Part shown: in pieces, positions 1 through 49,295 of the stretch | How the letters are laid out: the number at the start of each line of letters is the position of its first letter | How positions within the stretch are numbered: position 1 is the first letter of the stretch | Assembly: GCA_033220425.1 (NCBI GenBank) | Contig: JASNWA010000002.1 | Coordinates: 1 to 64,000 of the forward strand | Reading direction: 5' to 3' | From: Lepraria neglecta | Lineage: Eukaryota > Ascomycota > Lecanoromycetes > Lecanorales > Stereocaulaceae | DNA length: 64,000 bases | Made by a program: the position numbers and the translations under genes | The notes under the pieces: generated by a model | Seen by the model: the letters and a program-made list of their open reading frames with translations, nothing else | Database searches by the model: none | What the model was told of the DNA's origin: nothing

Positions 1-893
1 CGAGGTAACCGCGGGGCGGGTATATATTACACAAAAATCCTGTAGTACTACCTAACTCCGGCTATTCTAATTTTCAGGATAAAAACTAAATAGCTCCTTA
101 ATAAATCAAGTAGGATTGAAGTTGATAGCTAGCTGATTCTGCTTTGAACCTTTGCCTTGATATATTAGGTAAAGGGTAGACCCGGCAATGGTTTGCCGGC
201 CACCTCTGGCACCGTCTAATCGAGGCTATTCTGATTCCGTCCTCGGATTGAAAAACGGACCACTCCCTGGCGAGATAGAGAGGGATCTAAGTTGATAGCC
301 AGTTCCGAATCCGCTGAGGACCTTTACCTTAATAGTATAGGTAAAGGGTAACCCTGGCAGTAGTTTACCGGCACCACTTCTAGCACTATCTGATTAAGGC
401 TATTCTGATTCTGTCCTCGGATTGAAACACGGACTACTCCTTGGCTAGATAGAGAGGGATCTAAGTTAATAGCTAGTGCAGAATCCGCTAAGGACCTTTA
501 CCTGGATATCCTAGATAAAGGGTGGCCCTGGCAGTAGTTTACCGGCCACTTCTAGCACTATCTGATTAAGGCTATTCTAATTCCGTCCTCGGATTGAAAA
601 ACGGACTACTCCTTGGCTAGATAGAGAGGGATCTAAGTTAATAGCCAGTGTAGCATCCGCTGAGGACCATTACCTATATATCCTAGATAAAGGGTGACCC
701 CGGCAATAGTTTGCCGGCCACCTCTAGCACTGGCTAATCGAGGCTATTCTGATTCCGTCCTCGGATTGAAAAACGGACCACTCCTTAGCGAGATAGAGAG
801 GGATCTAAGTTAATAGCCAGTGTAGAATCCGCTGAGGACCTTTACCTGGATATCCTAGGTAAAGGGTGGCCCCGGCAGTAGTTTGCCGGCCAC
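1..893. repeat. Satellite array 1, ~172-bp units
   Basis: Tandem copies of a 172-174 bp unit are visible by eye. The landmark CTGATTCCGTCCTCGGATTG recurs with variants near 231, 405, 577 and 749, and each unit also carries a GATAGAGAGGGATCTAAGT box and a GGCAATGGTTTGCCGGCCAC box. About five units are present, preceded by a divergent head unit (1-180) that begins CGAGGTAACCGCGGGGCGGG. The array stops at TTTGCCGGCCACCTGGATCG. Units differ mainly by transitions. A second array with the same head lies at 2595-3712. Confidence 0.95.
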
Positions 894-1379
894 CTGGATC
901 GCTTTAGTACTTGATGATTGCTCTATGGTATCGATCGATATTCGATAGATATTGGATGAATGTTGGATGAATCAAGCGGAATCCGGCCCGGTATGGGGGG
1001 GGGCCACCTCGACTCGATACGTTTGCACGTACTCCTCAACGATACCCTAAAGGCCGAATCTTCTCCAACTCAGCGACTGGATAGGTTCGATCCCATCCTG
1101 GCCAGCCCTGAAGTTTGAGCCGGATCCGACTACAAAAGGGAATTCCAGTGAACGGGTCGAAATGAATTCCAGGGAACCCCCCGTGCTGGAAAATCCGCGG
1201 GCCGCGGTAAAAATGCAGCCCTAGGAAATAATTCCAGTGAACCAAGACTGGAATTTCTAATGGGAGACAGTTTAACTATTTCCTCCTTTTCTTATCTATT
1301 ATTCTAGTAATTAGTTATAATTCTTTTATTCTTGAATTATCTACTATTTCTATAGTAATCGTTACCAAGTCGCCCGTAC
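894..1379. other. Unassigned spacer between array 1 and the peptidase-like gene
   Basis: No convincing gene is seen here. The stretch holds a run of G (996-1005), three loose copies of an AATTCCAGTGAAC-like motif (near 1141, 1170 and 1231) and one inverted copy (near 1245). The last ~120 bases are AT-rich and may be the 3' flank of the minus-strand gene that ends at 1380. Confidence 0.5.
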
Positions 1380-2501
1380 CTAATTATATCCTGCAGGATT
1401 AGGTATTATCGGCCCTGTAGCCGAGATACCGGCACGCCCACCAGCTACCTCGTAAATAAACCGGGCCCCCTCTCCTATACATTGCTGCCTCGTATTCCCG
1501 CTCCCCGTAATCCATATGTCGGCCACAGTCAGGCCACGGCCCCGGACCGGATGGCCTTGTACCCCTCTGATAGCCGGATAGGTGGTCGATTGGGGGGTCC
1601 GCATCAACCGGATAATATGCTCGGCATTAATACAGCCAGGCTGGCTAGAGAGCCGCGGGGGGGGAGACGAGGCTAGGTAATCCGCCGGATCGAACGTGCT
1701 GCTGTAGACATAATACTGCTGCCCGGCCCGGGCTATCCCTACTGCGTGCCACTGCGCGAGGCCGGCGTCGTCTTGGCTAGCGCTATTCAGGTTGCTGCAT
1801 ACCAGCGCCGCGCTGTGGGCGGTTATAGCGCGCGCTGTAGGATTCAATGTGCTACAGGCCTTATAGCTCGCCCGTTCCGATATATCAACGACCGAATTCA
1901 GGTAGCTAGATGGAGTTAATAAATGATTAGCCCTTAGAAAATAGGGAGGGGGAAGGAAGAAAGTAAGTGAGGAGGTAAGTAAGTAGGTAAATAAGTAGGT
2001 AAGCAAGTAAGCAAGCAAGCAAGCAAGTAAGCAAGCAAGTAAGTATATAGGCAAGCAAGCAAGTAAGTAAGCAAGTAGGTAAGTATACAGGCAAGCAAGC
2101 AAGTAAGTAAGCAAGTAGGTAAGTATACAGGCAAGCAAGCAAGTAGGCAAGCAAGCAAGTAAGCAAGTAAGTAAGTAAGCAGGTAAGTATACAGGCAAGC
2201 AAGTAAGTAAGCAAGTAAGCAAGCAGGCAAGTATACAGGTAAGCAAGCAAGTAGGCAAGTAAGTAAGTATACAGGCAAGCAAGAAATATCTATCTTACCT
2301 CTGCCTCTGAGCCTCGCTGGTGTATGAAGCTACCTGTGGCCAGATGGCCGGCGGTCCAGCCAGGCCTGGAGCAGGGCTATACTGAGGGGCGCCGCTTGAT
2401 CTCAGCTCGCTTAACCAGGTGCCGACTATATCAGCGCCGGTCTCCGCGGTCCAGGTGGTAGGTGCCGGTAGAGCCATAGAGTGTCGAAGAAACTGATTCA
2501 C
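1380..2501 (-). CDS. Two-exon gene, possible CE-clan (Ulp1/adenain-like) cysteine peptidase
   Basis: Exon 1 runs 2501-2299 and exon 2 runs 1905-1380. The intron (2298-1906, 393 bp) has a consensus GTAAGA donor, a GCTAAT branch-like site and a CTAG acceptor. The exons join in phase to 242 codons plus stop, with no internal break. A second acceptor 27 nt upstream (TTCTAAG, exon from 1932) keeps the same frame. Exon 2 encodes WHAVGI (His codon 1746-1748), a YYVYSSTFDP stretch, RGVQG, and RQQCIGEGARF (Cys codon 1479-1481). This His, acidic, Gln, Cys order is that of the CE-clan cysteine peptidases that cleave proteins such as SUMO conjugates or precursors. The family call is inferred from motif order alone. 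The gene sits between two satellite arrays, and its GC content suggests it escaped RIP. It could instead be an unrelated fungal hypothetical protein. Confidence 0.6.
1963..2284. repeat. AAGY tetranucleotide microsatellite inside an intron
   Basis: More than 300 bp of AAGC/AAGT/AGGC tetranucleotides, with a recurring higher-order phrase around GTATACAGGC. It lies wholly within the predicted intron of the peptidase-like gene. Reverse-strand translation in all frames gives the Leu/Tyr/Cys-rich runs expected of such a repeat, so those frames are not genes. Confidence 0.95.
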
Positions 2502-2594
2502 TAATATAGAAAGGGCTTAAAGGATTCAGTAAGAAGAGAATAGACCGGAGAGTATTAAGAAGAAGAGAATAGATTTGAAAAGAACCAGCTTGCA

Positions 2595-3712
2595 TCGAGG
2601 TAACCGCGGGGCGGGGTGTATGTTACACAAAAATCCAAGATATCTGGAGTACTACCTAACTCCGGCTATTCTAATTTTCAGGATAAAAACTAAATAGCTC
2701 CTTAATAAATCAAGCAGGATTGAAGTTAATAGCTAGCTGATTCTGCTTTGAACCTTTGCCTTGATGTCCTAGATTAAGGGTGACCCCGGCAATGGTTTGC
2801 CGGCCACCTCTGGCACCGTCTAATTAAGGCGATTCTGATTCCGTCCTCGGATTAAAAAACGGACCACTCCTTGGCGAGATAGAGAGGGATCTAAGTCGAT
2901 AGCCAGTGCAGAATCCGCTGAGGACCTTTACCTGGATATCCTAGATAAAGGGCAACCCCGGCAATAGTTTGCCGGCTACCTCTGGCACCGTCTAATTAAG
3001 GCGATTCTGATTCCGTCCTCGGATTAAAAAACGGACCACTCCTTGGCGAGATAGAGAGGGATCTAAGTCGATAGCCAGTTCTAAATCCGCTGAGGACCTT
3101 TACCTTGATATCCTGGGTAAAGGGTGACCCCGGCCATGGTTTACCGGCCACCCCTAGCACCGTCTAATCAAGGCCATTCTGATTCCGTCCTCGGATTGAA
3201 AAACGGACCATTCCTTGGCGAGATAGAGAGGGATCTAAGTCAATAGCCAGTTCCGAATCCGCTGAGGACCTTTACCTTGATAGTATAAGTAAAGGGTGAC
3301 CCCGGCAATGGTTTACCGGCTACCCCTAGCACCGTCTAATCAAGGCTATTCTGATTCCGTCCTCGGATTGAAAAACGGACCACTCCTTGGCGAGATAGAG
3401 AGGGATCTAAGTCAATAGCCAGTTCTGAATCCGCTGAGGACCTTTACCTTGACAGTATAGGTAAAGGGTGACCCCGGCAATGGTTTGCCGGCCACCTCTG
3501 GCACCGTCTAATTAAGGTGATTCTGATTCTATCCTCGGATTGAAAAACGGACCACTCCTTAGCGAGATAGAGAGGGATCTAAGTCGATAGCCAGTGCAGA
3601 ATCCGCTGAGGACCTTTGCCTTGATAGTATAGGTAAAGGGTGACCCCGGCAATGGTTTGCCGGCCACCTCTGGCACCGTCTAATCGAGGCTATTCTGATT
3701 CTATCCTCGGAT
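2595..3712. repeat. Satellite array 2, ~172-bp units
   Basis: Same head and same unit as array 1. The head (2595-2780) is nearly identical to bases 1-180, apart from a short extra segment after ACACAAAAATCC. About six units follow up to the CCTCGGATT at 3705-3712, ending about ten bases before the stop codon of the long minus-strand frame. These units are closer to one another than those of array 1, which suggests more recent amplification or homogenisation. Confidence 0.95.
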
Positions 3713-3722
3713 TCCGCCGCAT

Positions 3723-6700
3723 CTACTCGTCTGATAATACCAGCACCGACGGCTCTTCCTCGGCAAGTTCCGAGATATCCTCTCTACCTTCCTTACTATC
3801 TTGCTCAACTAGCGTAAGGTACATCCGCGCGTCAAGAAACGTGTTGTCCAACGTGACCAGATTGCGGAATACGCCGCGAAGATATTTGGTGGTATCGCTG
3901 TTAGTGTTGGTCAAGGTGTACAAGGGGCCGTCTCGGATGATACGGCTGATCGCCTTCTGGGTGGGAGAGTCATTCACGGCGCGGTCAACCCGATCGACGA
4001 AAGGATGGTGCTCGGCATCGAGACGGCAGGACAACCAGTTGGTTCGCTGGACCATCGGTGTCTTGTTAATCCTCTGTCGGGTAAAAACGGTATTGTTATC
4101 GTTCGCCTTTTGGATGCACGAGAGGTGGTCAGTGTCGTATTAGGGAATGATCAGCATCAGTTTGGAGGCGCGGCGTCCGAGATAATCCGTCCACGCGGGT
4201 TGACGCAGGATATATGGAAAGGTCTGGTCGAAAATAGTCCAGAGTTGTTTGACGAGGGTCCGGAATTTACATCGCTCCCATTTGCGCCCCCGACCCTGTA
4301 ATTCCGGCTCGTCGAATCCAAAGAGGGCGCGGACTCGATCCTGCCATAGGCCTGACTCGTGGTAGTGAGCGAAGAAGGCTTCTTTGCCGTTGGAGCCCGG
4401 GGCTCTCGCGCGAACAATATTGGGCCGGCCCCCGTAATCCGGGTCACCAACCCGGGCGTGAGCATACAGAGACCATTTCGCGAGTCCTCGTCGTCTATTT
4501 GCGCGAGAAAGTATTCCTTCTGTATCGCCTTAGAGGGCCACTCGTCTTGAACGGGGCAGGGTCCCGTCTTGCGGCTTCGAACAGCATCCTTCCAGTCTCT
4601 TTTAGCGATATAGCAGCGCTTGGCGAGGATATCGAAAACTTCCAGATTATATTCCCTGACGACGAGTTGCGCGGCGAGATCCAGTGTGCGTTTCACCCAG
4701 CGTTCCAATGGCTCGTACGTCTGCGGTACACAGCTGTACGTCTCACAGTGCTCCCGCCAAAGACTGTAGAAATAATGTTCCTTATTCAGGAGACGGGCGA
4801 TTCGGTATCTGCGGAAGGACTTCTGAAAGGCGTTATAATCTTGGGTGAGCCCAAGATTCTCGAGTGCGTGTTGGGAGAAGTACGGTAGGGGCCTCCATCG
4901 CATGAGATCGGCACGGACCCAGACCATACCGTACGTATCCACGGAGCGACGATATCCTAGCCCGAGGCGTATCGTCGGGGTCCCGTCCTCGTGGTCGTGT
5001 CGTGGGCTACTCATCGTCCAGTCGTCCCTCCACAAGGGCCGATAGGGGAACTCCCGGGGATCGTCGCCTCCAAAGCTGAGGGCCAGGGTCCGGACGATTA
5101 CCATGACCATCACCCCATGCATTTACTCTTCCTTCCACGTCATAGCCGTGAGGTCCCCAACCCCGCCCTCCAGGCGTGTCATAATGACCTCGAGGTGTAG
5201 GAGCCAGCGGTTGGTGGTCGCGGCGATAAACTTGAGAACCTCTACGGTTAGCAGGATCCAATAGGGGAAATAAGGTGCACGTCGACGGTGAGGGCCAGAG
5301 TCGTTGTTAACTATAGTTAACGTCGGGCTCAGGGCGGATCCATCGTCGTCGATAGTATCGAAATTCATATTTCGGAAACACGTCAAGTTCATTCGGCATT
5401 CCTGTCGGGCCCCGAAGTTCGTGGCTTTGTACTCAGGAGCGTCAGGCGGCGGCACGCGCCGGGGAGGAGGAGCGGGAGCGGGAGCTTCGTTGTCAGATCC
5501 GTGGGGTGAGTAGGTCTCGTTATCCGACGTGAGAGCGTCATCGAGCGCGCAATCGCTGAGATCAGCGGGTTAGTTGCGGCGCTGGGGCCGTGGCGGGCGA
5601 TAAGTGGTGTCTTCGGCGGACTTCAGGGCCGCCTGAAGCCGGATTTTGGTCGTGTTGTATTAACAAACGAGCTGCTCGTGTTTCCGTCGACGGGCGGATG
5701 ATAAGCCTTTATGGTTGGCCTCGTACCAGCGGTCGAGATTCGACTGGCTGAACCCTAGAGCTTCGAAATACGGGTTCTGGAAAGGCCCGTATTTCTTGAG
5801 GGGTGTATCGAACAGATGTTTGACGAGATTGTACGCTTTCGGATATACGATACCGCACTTTCGGTGCAGGTAGTTATGGGGCCGGACGTCGACCGACATA
5901 GAGCCCGCATCCCGGGTCAAGAACCACGGGTATTTCGACTCCCGGGTGCGGGTAGCGCCCTGGGAGGGGTCGTGGAAGGCTTCGGCCCAATACTCCAGGC
6001 ACCCGGGTTTGCGGAGAAGGGTGATAGCCTGCGACGTATCCCCGATCGGGGTATCTTCCACCCCAAAGTCCAGCCAACAGTCTCCAGGTAGGAAGTATCC
6101 ATCGCGGAAATCGAAACAGTCGTCGAGATAGGCGAGGAAATCATCCCGAGCCTGGGCGGGAGTCGGGCGAGATATATAGATCTTGAGGTTATGGCCCTGG
6201 ACAACCAGAAAGGGGTTCTTGAAGAGAGGGCGATCGCCGGCTTTACGGCATACCTCTCTCCAAAAGGCATCTAGATCTTGGGAGGGGATCAGGTACGACA
6301 CGTTTATAGCTTGGCCCGGAGTCAGATTATGAACTTCATGCTTCACGTAGGCCTTACAGTTAGCGTCTTCGAAGCTGCCGGGATGACGGGCACGGACTTG
6401 GGCATCGCAAGTCGATCGGAGTGCCGGGAGGATAATATCGTCGATCTATATTTGCTGGGATTTACTACTAAGATGGTAGCTATAGTGCCTCTGCTTTTTC
6501 TTCATGCGAGGGAAGAAGATATAATAGTCGTAGTTGAAGCCAGCGCTGCTAACGCCATACCCGAGGCGGAGGTATTTGGTCATATGAATCCGTCGCGACC
6601 GGAACGTGACGCGAGGGTCTTAGGTGATCGTCTTGAGATAGGGCGGGCGGTAGGCCAGTCGGAAGCCCTGCCGGTGGACCGCCAGTGTGGTGACCCGGGC

Positions 6701-8185
6701 CATGAAGCTATCCACGTCGTAACTGCGTCGGACCCACGGGTCGGTCCTCCGCTCCGCCTGCTCGAACGCCTCAGCGGATTTGGCGATGCTGAGAGCCTGT
6801 TCTAGGACATCGCCACGGCTACGGCCTCCTAAGAGTTCCTGCCAGTCTACCTCTCGGAAATCATTATACTGACCGCGGCGACGGAGATGGGTGCCGGATT
6901 GTAGCGGAAACGGGACTCCAGGGAGATGTTCGTTAAGATAGTCGGTGTATTCGGCTAAAGAGCGTGTTCCGTTGGTGCCGATATGGTCGTTCCCTATTGG
7001 ACACGTTATTAGTCAAGTATTCAGGATAGAGTTATCGAAGGTCGGAGTCTTACTACACGTGCAGAGAGGTGCCCAGCTGCGGTCGAGGCAGTCCTGCGCG
7101 GTAGTCATCGGATCAGGAGCGTCGTCGGACAGGCTCAGTCCCGAGAGATCATCCTCCAGCGATGCCGCGGACTTATCGTACGTATCTGGATCGGATGGCC
7201 GGGAAACGGCCGAGCGAGACTCGAGAGGATCATCGATATCAGGCAGGTCGCCGTCGACGGGAAGGGTATTATTAACAGTATAGAGCCTCCTCGGCGATAT
7301 TACCATATAAGTACTCGCTGATACCGTCGTAGTAGAGGATTGGGATAGTAACGCTGCGGGGGATCGATTGCGATCAAGGGTAGGTGTGATTAAGGTTGAC
7401 GGCTGTCGCGGGGGAGAGGCCGGGAATCGCTCGGACTGGGTCGACCGGTTACCCTCCAACGCGGGGGAGGGCCGCGGGATCCTAGGTGAGTTATCGTCCT
7501 CCAACAACGCTAAGGTATCGGTCACTACAGTTAGTCTGGAAGATATCGGATAGGAGGGGATGTTAACTGAAGTTAACGTAGACATCGAGGGAGGGATATA
7601 GACTGCGGTAACCCTAGATATTAAATAGGCGGTTCGGGACGAGGCTCTTGTTGGGTAACGCGACTGGGGTTGGGCGATCGGTTGTAGGGTGGTATTATTG
7701 ACTCCTTCTGGACCCTGGCTGATGGGGGGGTATAGGGATGGGTCCTCCTCGATGATTTGATTCAGGCCGTTACTAATACTGGAGAGGTCTATCGACTGAG
7801 AGCGAGTATCGGTCCTGGTCGATGGTGGACTAATATTGGCGGTGCCGGAGGTTAAAGGTGCTTTGGCTCGAGAGCGACTGGATCTGGGAGAGGAAGTAGT
7901 CGGCCGTTGGTAGGGGGGGACTGGATTGATACCCGGGTGATCATCCTCTACGGTAGGATCAAAGAGGGTAGGCTCGCTCGCAGGAGAATACTGCTGAAGA
8001 GAGCTATCGAGTGATAGATAGCGAGGCCGACCCGGAGGGGATTCCGGTCCTGGGTTGAAGGGAGCTGGTTCGGCGGGGGTATTCGAGGGGCCAGCCCGTC
8101 TGGTAGTACTGTCCCTGTTATAGCTGCGTTGCGTCGCTCGTCTTGCAGCGAGTCGTTCCTCTTAGGGCTTTGCTTTGCGGCCCAT
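3723..8185 (-). pseudogene. Very long unknown frame, ~1490 codons, lightly broken
   Basis: One reading frame runs from an ATG at 8185 (MGRKAKP, followed by a basic EERLAARRATQRSYNR stretch) almost to 4157. After one frame change it continues to a stop at 3723. About six to eight breaks are spread over 4.4 kb, so the locus is degraded but recent. The N-terminal ~400 residues are Pro/Ser-rich and look disordered. The middle (about 7000-5660) is a globular block with many Trp, Tyr and Arg (HNLTPGQAINVSYLIP, WFLTRDAGSMSVDVRPHNYL). An acidic, Pro-rich linker follows. The C-terminal block has QHALENLGLTQDYNAF and WVKRTLDLAAQLVVREYN. I do not recognise a named domain; the style is that of multicopy fungal hypothetical proteins. 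It abuts satellite array 2. Confidence 0.6.
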
Positions 8186-8365
8186 TGTAAAGGAATCGTA
8201 TCTAGTAGAAAATCAGTTCTAGAGGGAAGATAAATCAGGAGGTATCGGGGGAAGAAAAGAAAAGGGAAAAGGGATAAAAGGGCTGGGGGATGGTCTCGTA
8301 CCTGTAAAAAAGGCGGTAAAACGAATGAGATAGACGATTTGCCTGCTCCCGACCATAATAGGCTA
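8186..8365. promoter_or_regulatory. Presumed 5' flank of the long minus-strand frame
   Basis: Read on the minus strand, this is a pyrimidine-rich run (TTTTCCCTTTTCTTTTCTTCCCCC-type, around 8220-8290) ahead of the ATG at 8185. CT tracts upstream of starts are common in filamentous-fungal promoters. No TATA box is clear. Confidence 0.35.
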
Positions 8366-9005
8366 ATTAGAGCCAGCGACGTCCGTGATTACCTCCGAGG
8401 GTAATACGGTCAAGTAACGTCTTACCGATTTCCGCCAGGGCGTAATTGGGTAGCTTGGGGAACCGGGTCAAAGGTTGTATAACGGCTTATCTAGGGTGGG
8501 TGGATTGGGGCGAATCCCGGATTCCGAATACTTCGAAACCTGGCTGTCGGTAGTCGGATCCCTTTTGAGGCTTGAGGAGCTATACGAGATATATACTGTC
8601 AAGGAATGCCTCTCCTTCGAGCTCTCGGAAGGGTAGGGACAGGGTAATTGAATGGACCACCGATTCGCGGGAGGAATTTGGGGCGGATTCTCGTCCCTAT
8701 AAAGTTCGCTCAGGGCCTCTAGGCTCTCTGTTAGAACCGACGGCCGGGGTAACAGAGCTGATACTTGCTGCGGTGCAGTCGGAGGGGAAGAGGAAGAAGA
8801 AGAAGGGGGAGGTAGGTGACTGCGGAGTGCTTACTGTAGTTCCTTAATAAGCGCGTCCTGCTGTAGGCGAGTTACTTGTTCCTGCTGCCAGCTCTGCTTT
8901 TGTCGCTGGCGCTACCGATATTACCGCGCTGCGTTCTTTATCCTTTTCTCAGCGGCCGTGGTTAGAGGTCGACCTATTATAGTGACCGTTAGCGGTGTTC
9001 GTGCA
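8366..9005 (-). pseudogene. Short frame with basic, Gln-rich N-terminus, broken
   Basis: A single minus-strand frame of ~210 codons with about four internal stops and no clear start. It begins with a hydrophobic/Thr stretch, then a basic, Gln-rich region (GRPLTTAAEKRIKNAAR, then an Arg/Gln-rich run and WQQEQVTRLQQDALIKELQ) that could form a coiled coil. A Ser/Pro-rich stretch and a moderately conserved-looking tail follow. The basic-plus-helical start is loosely bZIP-like, but no heptad leucines can be counted with confidence. It lies upstream of, and co-directional with, the 1490-codon frame, whose own N-terminus is also basic. Confidence 0.4.
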
Positions 9006-9282
9006 GGTAGTGGACGGACTGTAATAACGGGACTGGAAAAGCTGGCAAAAGATGCGCAAGTTTCGGGGGGGGGGGAATCTGCAAAGTGGTTAATTTCCCA
9101 GCGTTGCTGAGGTGATGGCGGGTCCGAGGGGGGATTAACCGATGGTGCGATCCTGATACGCGTAGGCTATTCGATCGCATATGTCGGATCAGATATATAG
9201 AGTCCTCCTGATGTAAACAAAGAGGTGACGTGTTGACGGTCGCCAAAGTTAATATCCTGCCCCTGCGGGGTTCCGACTGTCG

Positions 9283-9378
9283 GGCCAATCGAATCGCGAA
9301 TAAACGACATAGCGCCCGCCGCGAGATGTCAAGCTCCAGGGGAACGCGCTATGTCGTTTATTCGCGATTCGATTGGCC
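9283..9378. repeat. Perfect 33-bp inverted repeat with 30-nt loop
   Basis: Arms 9283-9315 and 9346-9378 are exact reverse complements (left arm starts GGCCAATCGAATCGCGAATA) around a 30-nt spacer. Such a long perfect arm in otherwise single-copy sequence resembles a foldback element or the fused terminal repeats of a transposon. It marks the right edge of the satellite/ORF cassette. Confidence 0.95.
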
Positions 9379-9650: not shown

Positions 9651-9870
9651 TAATGCTATGGTAGATGTGTAGACGAGGATACTAAAGCTAAGGAGGGAAG
9701 CTCTGAAGGAGCGCGCGAAGGTATATGAGTGCAACCCCTGAGCTAGGCCCGATATGGCTAGAGCACCGGGTAGGCAGCGTGGGTAGGAAACAGGCAAAGC
9801 CCAGCCCGTAACATTACCCCCCTCTTCTACTAGGCATCGTCCCTGATGCCTGTAAGCAACAATCCATTGA
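9651..9870 (-). mobile_element. Fragment of an LTR-retroelement end
   Basis: Around 9795-9812 the sequence GCCCAGCCCGTAACA is followed by TTACCCCCCTCTTC and then GCATCGTCCCTGATGC. The same order (LTR end GCCAAGCCGTGACA, C-run, GCATCGTCCCTGATGC) occurs at 23,957-24,006 at the left end of retroelement C. Read on the minus strand this is a polypurine tract next to the start of an LTR. I infer a short fossil of a related element; its outer boundary is not clear. Confidence 0.4.
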
Positions 9871-9899
9871 TCAGCACGCCCATTATCCATCATCTATCA

Positions 9900-10672
9900 T
9901 CCATCGCATAGCGCATAGCGCTTAGCGTATTCCATATCCCATACCAGTATACCATATCACATCGGTGGCGTTGGCGTTGGTGGTTGCTCAGAGCAAGTGC
10001 AGTATTGCGGAGTTGCGGAGCGCCGAGATTTCTTCTCCCGAAGTCAGGATTCGGCGGCTGCGATATAGGCAACAGTGACCACATAAAACACTTGTGATTA
10101 GTTGCTCTGGTGCATCAGATGGTTGATAGGCAGCGACGATAGTACCCGTAATAGAAAGAATGAGCCAATGTTGATGGATGGCCGCCTGGTGATAGTCGGA
10201 ATTAAAAAGTCGAAAAGTCGAAAATCTGAAAGGAATGTGATTTGCGCGTAGCGCTATGCAAGCAACTAAATAGTGGCGTTCCACCAGCTTAGTAACGATC
10301 TATCCATCTATCGCATAGCGCATAGCGCATTCCATATTCCAAACCAGTATACTATGTGACGTTGGTGGCGCTGGTGGTGATCGCTCGGAACAGGTGTAGA
10401 GCTGCGGAGCGCCAAAATTCCTTCTCCAAAAGTTAGGATATGGCGACAGTGATGTAGGCAACGGCAACTACATAAAACACCTGTAGTTAGTGGCTCCGGC
10501 GCATCAGATGGTCCCTAGTAAGCGACGATTGCATCTAGGTATGAAAGGATTATGCTAGTGTTGATGGATAGCAACCCATAGTAGTCAGAATCGAAATGTC
10601 GAAAGGAAAGTGAGATTCGCGCAGCGAATTACAAGCAGTAGGAATGGTGGCCTTCCACCATCTTAGTAACGT
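9900..10672. repeat. Tandem duplication, two copies of ~375-395 bp
   Basis: Copy 1 (9900-10295) and copy 2 (about 10303-10672) share a CGCATAGCGCATAGCG start, ACCAGTATAC, a GCGGAGCGCC box, CATAAAACAC, a GCATCAGATGGT box, a GTCGAAA run and the end TTCCACCAYCTTAGTAACG. They differ by many substitutions and small indels, so the duplication is old. Frames across it (for example 10284-9988 minus) differ between the copies and are not credible genes. Confidence 0.85.
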
Positions 10673-19431: not shown

Positions 19432-20441
19432 ATCTTTCTTCTAATAACAGATTATGGCGAAATTCGGAGCAATTCCGCACTTATAGCCAATTAGATTGGC
19501 CCTATATTCAGTGTTCCCTCTCTCGGCTAGCGCCTTCAACCACCAAAAGTTGAATCCGCATCGCAACTTCTTCGCACTACTTCCCCGCGCCACATACTTC
19601 ATATGATATCGAGATGATTTCATATGTTTTGGAGTCAATCATTAGCTTGCTTGCGCATCAAGAATTTTTAGAATCGGTCCATTTGCGCAATAGTTATGAG
19701 CAAAAGAAGCGTTTTCGCCATGTTTTGCTGGCAGCGCGAGCTCAGTGGCAAATGCCAAGCATTGAGCTTGGCTCCCCCGGACCCTGGAACATCGAAAGTT
19801 GAATTCGCATCGCAACTTCTTTGCACTACGTCCCCGCGCTACATACGTCATATGATATCGAGATGATTTCATCAGTTCTGGAACCAAGCATGCGCTTTCC
19901 AACAACGTCGAAATTTTCAAAATCGGTCTATTTGCGCAAAACTTATGAGCAAAAGAAGCGGTTTCGCTATATTTTGCAGGCAGCGCAGGCTCGGTGGCAA
20001 ATGCCAAGCATTGAGCTTGGCGCCCCGGACCTGGAACCATCAAAAGTTGAATGCGCACCGCAACTTCTTCGCAGCGATACCCCGCGCTACATACGTTATA
20101 TAATATCGAGATAATTTCATAAGTTCTGGAACCAAACATGCGCTTTCCAACGCGGTTCGAATTTTAAAATTTGGCTAAGATTTAGCTAAGGAAAGCTCAA
20201 AAAACATGTTTTTGCCTCCGGAGTAACCTAAAGCTACCCCCGCAGCCGCCCCCGAAGCACTAATATACTAAATCCTTAATAACTTTTAATACATTAGGGT
20301 TAGGGCTTAACTTTATATATATAAATTATACTATAAATAGAGGGCTTTCTAATTTTGCTTAAATTTTCTAAGTAGAGTATAAAATAAGCGAGATATAGTC
20401 GTTTTACGGTAATCTTCTGTGAAGATTACGGGCACTCACTT
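19432..20441. mobile_element. Helitron-like non-autonomous element, copy 1
   Basis: About 1,010 bp inserted in the LTR of retroelement A; the same sequence occurs at 48,273-49,295. It starts ATCTTTCTTCTAATAACAG and ends GGGCACTCACTT. A 9-bp hairpin (arm GTAATCTTC, loop TGT, 20,409-20,429) lies 12 nt from the right end. There are no terminal inverted repeats and no clear target duplication. The 5' TC and subterminal 3' hairpin resemble Helitrons, although a CTRR end is not seen. The middle holds about 2.5 copies of a ~248-bp repeat (starts near 19,549, 19,798 and 20,046). It encodes nothing credible. Confidence 0.7.
20409..20429. other. Subterminal hairpin of the Helitron-like element
   Basis: Arms GTAATCTTC and GAAGATTAC around TGT, followed by GGGCACTCACTT. 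The same hairpin is at 49,263-49,283 in copy 2, so it is conserved. Confidence 0.85.
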
Positions 20442-48272: not shown

Positions 48273-49295
48273 ATCTTTCTTCTAATAACAGATTATGAGG
48301 AAATTCGGAGCAATTCCGCACTTGCAGCCAATCAGATTGGCCCTATATTCTGTATTCCCTCTCTCGGCTAGCGCCTTCAACCACCAAAAGTTGAATTCGC
48401 ATCGCAACTTCTTCGCACTACTTCCCCGCGCCACATACATCATATGATATCGAGATGATTTCATAAGTTTTGGAGTTAATCATTAGCTTGCTTGCGCATC
48501 GAGAATTTTTAGAATCGGCCCATTTGCGCAATAGTTATGAGCAAAAGAAGCGTTTTCGCAATGTTTTGCAGGCAGCGCGAGCTCGGTGGCAAACGCCAAG
48601 CATTGAGCTTGGCGCCCCCGGACCCTGGAACATCAAAAGTTGAATGCGCACCGTAACTTCTTCGCAGTACTGCCCCGCGCCACATGCGTCATGTGATACC
48701 GAGATGATTTGATAAGTTCTGGAACCAAGCATGCAATTTCTAATACCGTCAGAATTTTCAAAATCGGTCTATTTGCGCAAAAGTTATGCGCAAAAGAAGT
48801 GTTTTCGCCATGTTTTGCAGGCAGCGCGAGCTCGGTGGCAAACGCCAAGCATTGAGCTTGGCGCCCCAGGACCCTGGAACATTAAAAGTTGAATGCGTAC
48901 TGTAACTTCTTCACAGTAATGCCCCGCGCCACATACGTCATGTGATACCGAGATGATTTCATGAGTTTTGGAACCAAGCATGCGCTTTCTAACACCGTTC
49001 GAATTTTGAAATTCGGCTAAAGATTGGCTGAGGAAAGCTCAAAAAACATGGTTTTACCTGTAGAGTTCCCTGAAGCTACCCCTGCAGTCACCCCCGAAGT
49101 GCCTCCGGAGCACTCAAATATTTAACACTTAATAACTTTCGATATATTAGGGTTAGGGCTTAGCTTTATATATATTAAATATACTATAAATATAGGGCTT
49201 TCTAATTCCGCTTAAATTTTTAAAATCGAGTATAAAATAAGCGAGATATAGTAGGTTTTACGGTAATCTTCTGTGAAGATTACGGGCACTAACTT
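48273..49295. mobile_element. Helitron-like non-autonomous element, copy 2
   Basis: 1,023 bp with the same start, internal ~248-bp repeats, end and hairpin (49,263-49,283) as copy 1. The empty site can be read in B1 (around 32,716-32,732, GGATTTGTAGTCAG). Here GGATTT precedes and GTAGTTAG follows the insert, so any target duplication is at most two or three bases. It is less TA-rich than the retroelement around it. Confidence 0.75.

Follow-up and report, generated by a model that had tools for sequence, protein, structure and literature searches.

Long minus-strand frames alternate with arrays of one satellite at the beginning of contig C10 of Lepraria neglecta. This raises the question whether a mobile composite element is present or whether genes and satellite reached the chromosome end by another route. 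The window, i.e. the whole stretch of DNA analysed, consists of the first 64 kb of this contig; the genome comprises 42.0 Mb in 11 contigs. In a preliminary description the locus was regarded as a three-gene cassette, with an inverted repeat at its right edge and possibly propagating with its satellite. The layout was found again, with two arrays of one 172-bp satellite, the same head at each of them and co-directional genes on the minus strand, but it contains two genes, not three (Table 1). They are named BIG and SMALL here.

Table 1 Features at the beginning of the window (positions in nucleotides)
Feature	Position	Strand	Basis
Head unit 1, diverged satellite monomer	1..147	-	contig-end side of array 1
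Satellite array 1, 172-bp unit, 4.3 copies	148..895	-	repeat and genome search
SMALL 3' flank, reaching the satellite at unit position 58	896..1270	-	junction sequences
SMALL exon 2, stop 1382-1380	1380..1905	-	relatives P0016-P0019
SMALL intron (GTAAG...TAG)	1906..2298	-	predicted splice sites, judged by eye
SMALL exon 1, ATG at 2477	2299..2477	-	alignment of copies
Head unit 2, between array 2 and SMALL	2596..2751	-	sequence comparison
Satellite array 2, 172-bp unit, 5.6 copies	2752..3713	-	repeat and genome search
BIG exon 2, broken in the window copy	3723..6993	-	14 homologues
BIG intron, 60 nt; stretch absent from homologues	6994..7053	-	predicted from sequence
BIG exon 1, ATG at 8185	7054..8185	-	gene model
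Short basic reading frame in the BIG 5' flank, open by chance	8992..9348	-	substitution pattern, indels
33-nt inverted repeat, hairpin-like	9283..9315 / 9346..9378		perfect arms, 30 nt apart
BIG module 5' edge, common to ~2 bp in eight flank contexts	9654		flank comparison

Toward the contig end, the order in the window is BIG, 172-bp satellite, diverged head unit, SMALL, satellite and head. Array 2 begins 10 nt past the BIG stop codon at 3723 on the minus strand. The two heads are 91% alike, and each lies on the contig-end border of its array. In gene sense, the outer head is located upstream of a further SMALL gene that would lie past the contig start; the order satellite, head, SMALL was seen at other chromosome ends.

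The frame of ~1490 codons is a real gene relic. In the window the reading frame of BIG is broken by in-frame stops and frame-shifting indels; in comparison with the copy at the right end of C4, six indels are not divisible by three. A search with the 6-kb body placed 11 copies in the genome, which is a lower bound. All 11 were aligned, some of them partial. Outside the intron, every copy is interrupted by one or more in-frame stops, mostly by conversion of CAA/CAG or TGG to a stop codon, and no intact BIG was found among them. The copies belong to two subfamilies, A and B, which are ~16-20% apart. Two copies on C9, one of each subfamily, are both split between the positions ~14,130 and ~90,450 (loci L031 and L032), a pattern that an inversion of 76 kb, or else an assembly join, could have produced by breaking the two genes. 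BIG was under purifying selection in the past, and many charged and aromatic residues of its product are invariant. The BIG product has ~1,470 aa and belongs to a conserved family of fungal proteins for which there is no Pfam model and no clear match to a known fold: Pfam gave no match, and for the predicted structure no fold match was obtained at E 0.001.

SMALL is open in the window and encodes 234 aa over two exons (2477-1380). Nine copies were aligned, and three of them (the window copy, one of C4-right and one of C8-right) retain the ATG and are free of stops in this region. The intron holds a 4-bp CTTG/CTTA microsatellite, which is the source of long Leu-Leu-Ala-Cys frames. The frames of the preliminary description came without coordinates, and its intact peptidase-like gene was taken to be SMALL. 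That the gene is open could be confirmed, whereas the peptidase label is backed by no Pfam match: exon 2 and three relatives matched nothing up to E 10. One His and one Cys are invariant in all four sequences compared, and the Asp of FDP varies.

The basic short frame, taken to be the one at 8992-9348, had been listed as a third gene and was rejected. Transversions between the window and the C4-right copy are distributed 10:9:9 on the codon positions 1:2:3, and 6-8 indels not divisible by three were counted in the six subfamily-B copies covering the frame, which is thus non-coding.

The perfect 33-bp inverted repeat exists, but it does not form the edge of the unit. This conserved element lies upstream of BIG, and the common boundary at 9654 is 276 bp further out. 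In the other BIG subfamily the inverted repeat is retained with altered letters; 3 of 25 predicted pairs are changed on both sides in at least one of eight copies. Repeat-induced point mutation (RIP) on both arms, or conversion between the arms, could be an alternative source of these paired changes. The outer arms read GGCCAAT...ATTGGCC, which we take to be similar to CCAAT boxes, and the inverted repeat may be a candidate promoter element.

The distribution in the genome was examined with several queries. Positions 1-2000 of the window gave 54 matches (lower bound), all at most ~135 kb from a contig end. With the satellite unit 147 matches were obtained (lower bound); 144 of these are no more than 135 kb away from a contig end, and the other three are on C3. 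The right terminus of C4 carries several TTAGGG repeats, and at the start of C4-left 8 nt of telomere repeat are present. Therefore, the region is subtelomeric. Introns, RIP-type changes and TTAGGG ends are features that fit a filamentous fungus. It is a true subtelomere, built from gene modules that end in a common 172-bp satellite. All 11 placed BIG copies are located near contig ends, namely on C1, both ends of C4, C5, C7 (two copies), C8, C9, C10 and C11. Relics of BIG were found on C7, 97-136 kb from the end, and on C8, where one lies ~420 kb from the end. The eight copies placed on C1, C4, C5, C7, C8 and C10 share one orientation, pointing to whichever contig end is closer. Toward the telomere BIG is followed by satellite, head and SMALL, and at C5-right and C7-left then by the gene TLH-a and again satellite.

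These results bear on several points of the preliminary description. Recurrence far beyond chance is shown by the 54, 147 and 11 matches of the three queries. Genes and satellite do travel together, and the unit recurs with a sharp boundary on its 5' side. The genes are multi-copy, and the satellite is not widespread without them. Isolated satellite pieces with no gene assigned are few and were located on C1, C3 and C4, e.g. C1:6275172-6275329, C4:25482-25639 and C3:5322214-5322633.

Some further sequences were noticed in these regions. A related tandem repeat with a unit of 249 bp forms two arrays of 2.5 copies each in the window (19538-20151 and 48385-49017). The product of the first long frame within the C5-left repeats (L011:1495-4305) is a 937-aa protein of the NPHP3_N/NACHT-TPR type, which is often tied to self/non-self recognition in fungi. 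A reverse transcriptase fragment (RVT_1, E 2.6e-14) was detected in the C8-right subtelomere (L030:524-982).

The 172-bp satellite is the common tail of unrelated genes: BIG, SMALL and two telomere-linked RecQ-type genes, TLH-a and TLH-b. The junction between gene and satellite lies at a position of the unit that is particular to each gene type. Subfamily A of BIG meets the satellite at unit position 102 (both listed junctions), subfamily B at position 70 (seven of seven listed) and SMALL at position 58 (four of four listed). For the TLH types, position 130-131 was determined.

TLH-a includes a first frame with an OrsD domain and a frame of 588 aa. Its near-complete matches number twelve and are spread over 10 of the 11 contigs; one more match, on C5, is split. 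TLH-b adds a RecQ-type helicase (DEAD 2e-21, Helicase_C 5.5e-16; recQ_fam 181.5 bits, below the cut-off of 219.8) and is present in two long copies, on C8 and C4, and in relics. In the part before the helicase, TLH-a and TLH-b have common R...K...R...Y positions (L014:3116-4435, L037, L028), a pattern that presumably resembles tyrosine recombinases. For TLH-a no recombinase match was obtained in Pfam, NCBIfam or PHROGs, and the predicted structure (pLDDT 41.9) is too poor for judging a recombinase fold.

The 5' side of the BIG modules is sharply defined. In ten copies, representing eight flank contexts, the module starts at ATTATAGCGGGCGGTGGGG, read in gene sense, or at a slightly different form of it. 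At a distance of 0-84 bp from this edge, chromosome-end DNA was matched in 8 of 10 copies with readable flank, or in six of the eight contexts. No such match beside the edge was found for the window copy or, within the 258 bp of flank compared, for one C9 copy. As controls, shuffled flanks matched in 8 of 60 cases and tiles of the window in 12 of 86, with C4-left ranked first each time; the reference stretch of C4-left apparently includes a dispersed repeat. The longest matches are weak (67-78%) in C11, C7 and C4-right.

Two chromosome ends can be compared directly. At C4-left, an empty end, (GGGAGC)n GGG is followed by TTAGGGTT. At C5-right, a filled end, (GGGAGC)n GGG is followed by TTGGTT and then by BIG. 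Hence, one BIG edge stands where the telomere repeat begins elsewhere. The contig end of C11 is 98.6% identical to C5 in an alignment of 1,573 columns that stops 7 bp short of BIG. On C11 and C7, DNA matching the contig end of C5 lies proximal to BIG, and a TTAGGGTTAGGG run separates the two. TLH-a of C5 lies directly on chromosome-end DNA; for TLH-a of C7 this was not the case. Positions 9655-10671 of the window, adjoining the edge, are occupied by a dispersed repeat with copies on several contigs and partial duplicates nearby.

Most probably, the gene-satellite modules were added onto chromosome ends by telomere-associated recombination and were then inactivated by RIP. New modules would be attached distally to chromosome ends that already exist: an eroded end would join or invade the module start on another end and copy outward, and this outward copying would leave a fixed 5' edge on former chromosome-end DNA, with the module reading toward the telomere. 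The common satellite tails would provide further homology for reshuffling, and RIP would afterwards kill the extra copies. Break-induced copying as the joining step and the role of the satellite in recombination are the parts that we infer. The evidence for terminal addition comes from one genome.

A fixed edge at the level of single bases exceeds the prediction of plain homologous recombination and counts against the terminal-recombination reading. Because the edge is nearly base-exact, some probability has to be left to protein-directed, telomere-targeted insertion. The BIG module would then be a mobile element, with the BIG or the TLH-a protein recognising the pre-telomeric end and placing the module, and with the satellite marking its 3' side. 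We consider this unlikely. The 5' edge is fixed in eight contexts, with one join exactly at the position of a telomere-repeat start elsewhere, but the 3' side of the module varies among the copies. No target duplication is visible at the edge, where the flanks differ, and no terminal repeat was seen. The sole long inverted repeat has both arms inside the 5' edge, unlike those of DNA transposons with terminal inverted repeats. The conservation of BIG, with its many invariant charged and aromatic residues, would suit such an element, yet none of the 11 aligned copies is intact. Likewise, the R...K...R...Y pattern of TLH-a and TLH-b points in this direction, whereas the database searches for a recombinase in TLH-a remained negative and its model is poor. 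The preliminary description had proposed a self-propagating element. Copies of one orientation near the ends, one satellite behind unrelated genes, the lack of a terminal repeat or target duplication and a boundary mostly on chromosome-end DNA leave this proposal unsupported. Recombination between chromosome ends in the subtelomeres explains the data no worse than transposition does.

Copying between chromosome ends is visible in long, nearly identical blocks. C4-left and C1-right have a common block of 14.66 kb at 99.9%, C11 and C7-left one of 11.4 kb at 98.8%. These blocks extend across the edge and could also be expected if one ancestral composite had spread passively via duplication of whole chromosome ends, with the sharp edge as a junction that formed once and was passed on to every copy. 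A case in which one gene was multiplied among telomeres and subsequently mutated by RIP is reported in PMC4522978. However, a single inherited junction predicts the same inner flank, whereas eight different flanks and two subfamilies ~16-20% apart were observed; we regard passive spread as very improbable.

The inactivation step of telomere-associated recombination followed by RIP was examined by the type of substitutions. Five subfamily-B copies, of which two are nearly identical, each show 141-188 differences from the majority; 117-160 of these were C>T or G>A and 0-1 were transversions, as is characteristic of RIP. The ratio TpA/ApT was 1.34-1.46 in seven of 11 BIG copies, 0.92 in the window copy and lower in three.

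Related systems are treated in PMC4522978, PMC8381367, PMC12857005 and PMC4812632, the accessible sections of which cover TLH families, a gene amplified among telomeres with subsequent RIP, and repeats bordered by interstitial telomeres. In these sections neither BIG nor a satellite tail common to unrelated gene types is described. The TLH families of Magnaporthe, Metarhizium, Ustilago and Mycosphaerella are comparable as multi-copy genes at chromosome ends, and TLH-type genes with OrsD and RecQ-type helicase parts occur in the same arrays here. In contrast, no relationship of BIG or SMALL to TLH emerged from the searches; according to Pfam, a RecQ-type helicase domain is present in neither of them and only in the neighbouring TLH-b. 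The DNA methyltransferase gene of Mycosphaerella graminicola reached a subtelomere, was multiplied at many chromosome ends and lost its activity through RIP (PMC4522978). That case concerns one single-copy gene of known function, whereas the set found here is modular, carries satellite tails and has a fixed 5' edge on chromosome-end DNA. Subtelomeric tandem repeats of Magnaporthe are also bordered by interstitial telomere sequence and are tied to telomere failure there, as far as outlined in the section of PMC8381367 available. They are a tandem repeat with LTR-like parts, in contrast to gene modules with a common satellite. The MoTeR/FoTeR telomeric retrotransposons are similarly telomere-proximal, adjacent to TLH genes and decayed by RIP (PMC12857005, excerpt). 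No reverse transcriptase domain was detected among the Pfam matches of BIG or SMALL.

BIG brings out a conserved fungal protein family that has no Pfam model. There is a slight chance that it is the founder of a new class of telomere-targeting module, in which the ~1,470-residue BIG or the satellite-tailed, recombinase-like TLH-a places modules at the base where the telomere starts. If this were true, chromosome ends would grow by protein-directed addition of gene-satellite units. The junctions suggest that one satellite can act as a common tail for unrelated subtelomeric genes. The chromosome ends present a readable series of growth rings, and one and the same genome offers an empty end, C4-left, beside a filled one, C5-right; this lets the addition of subtelomeric genes be tested to the base.
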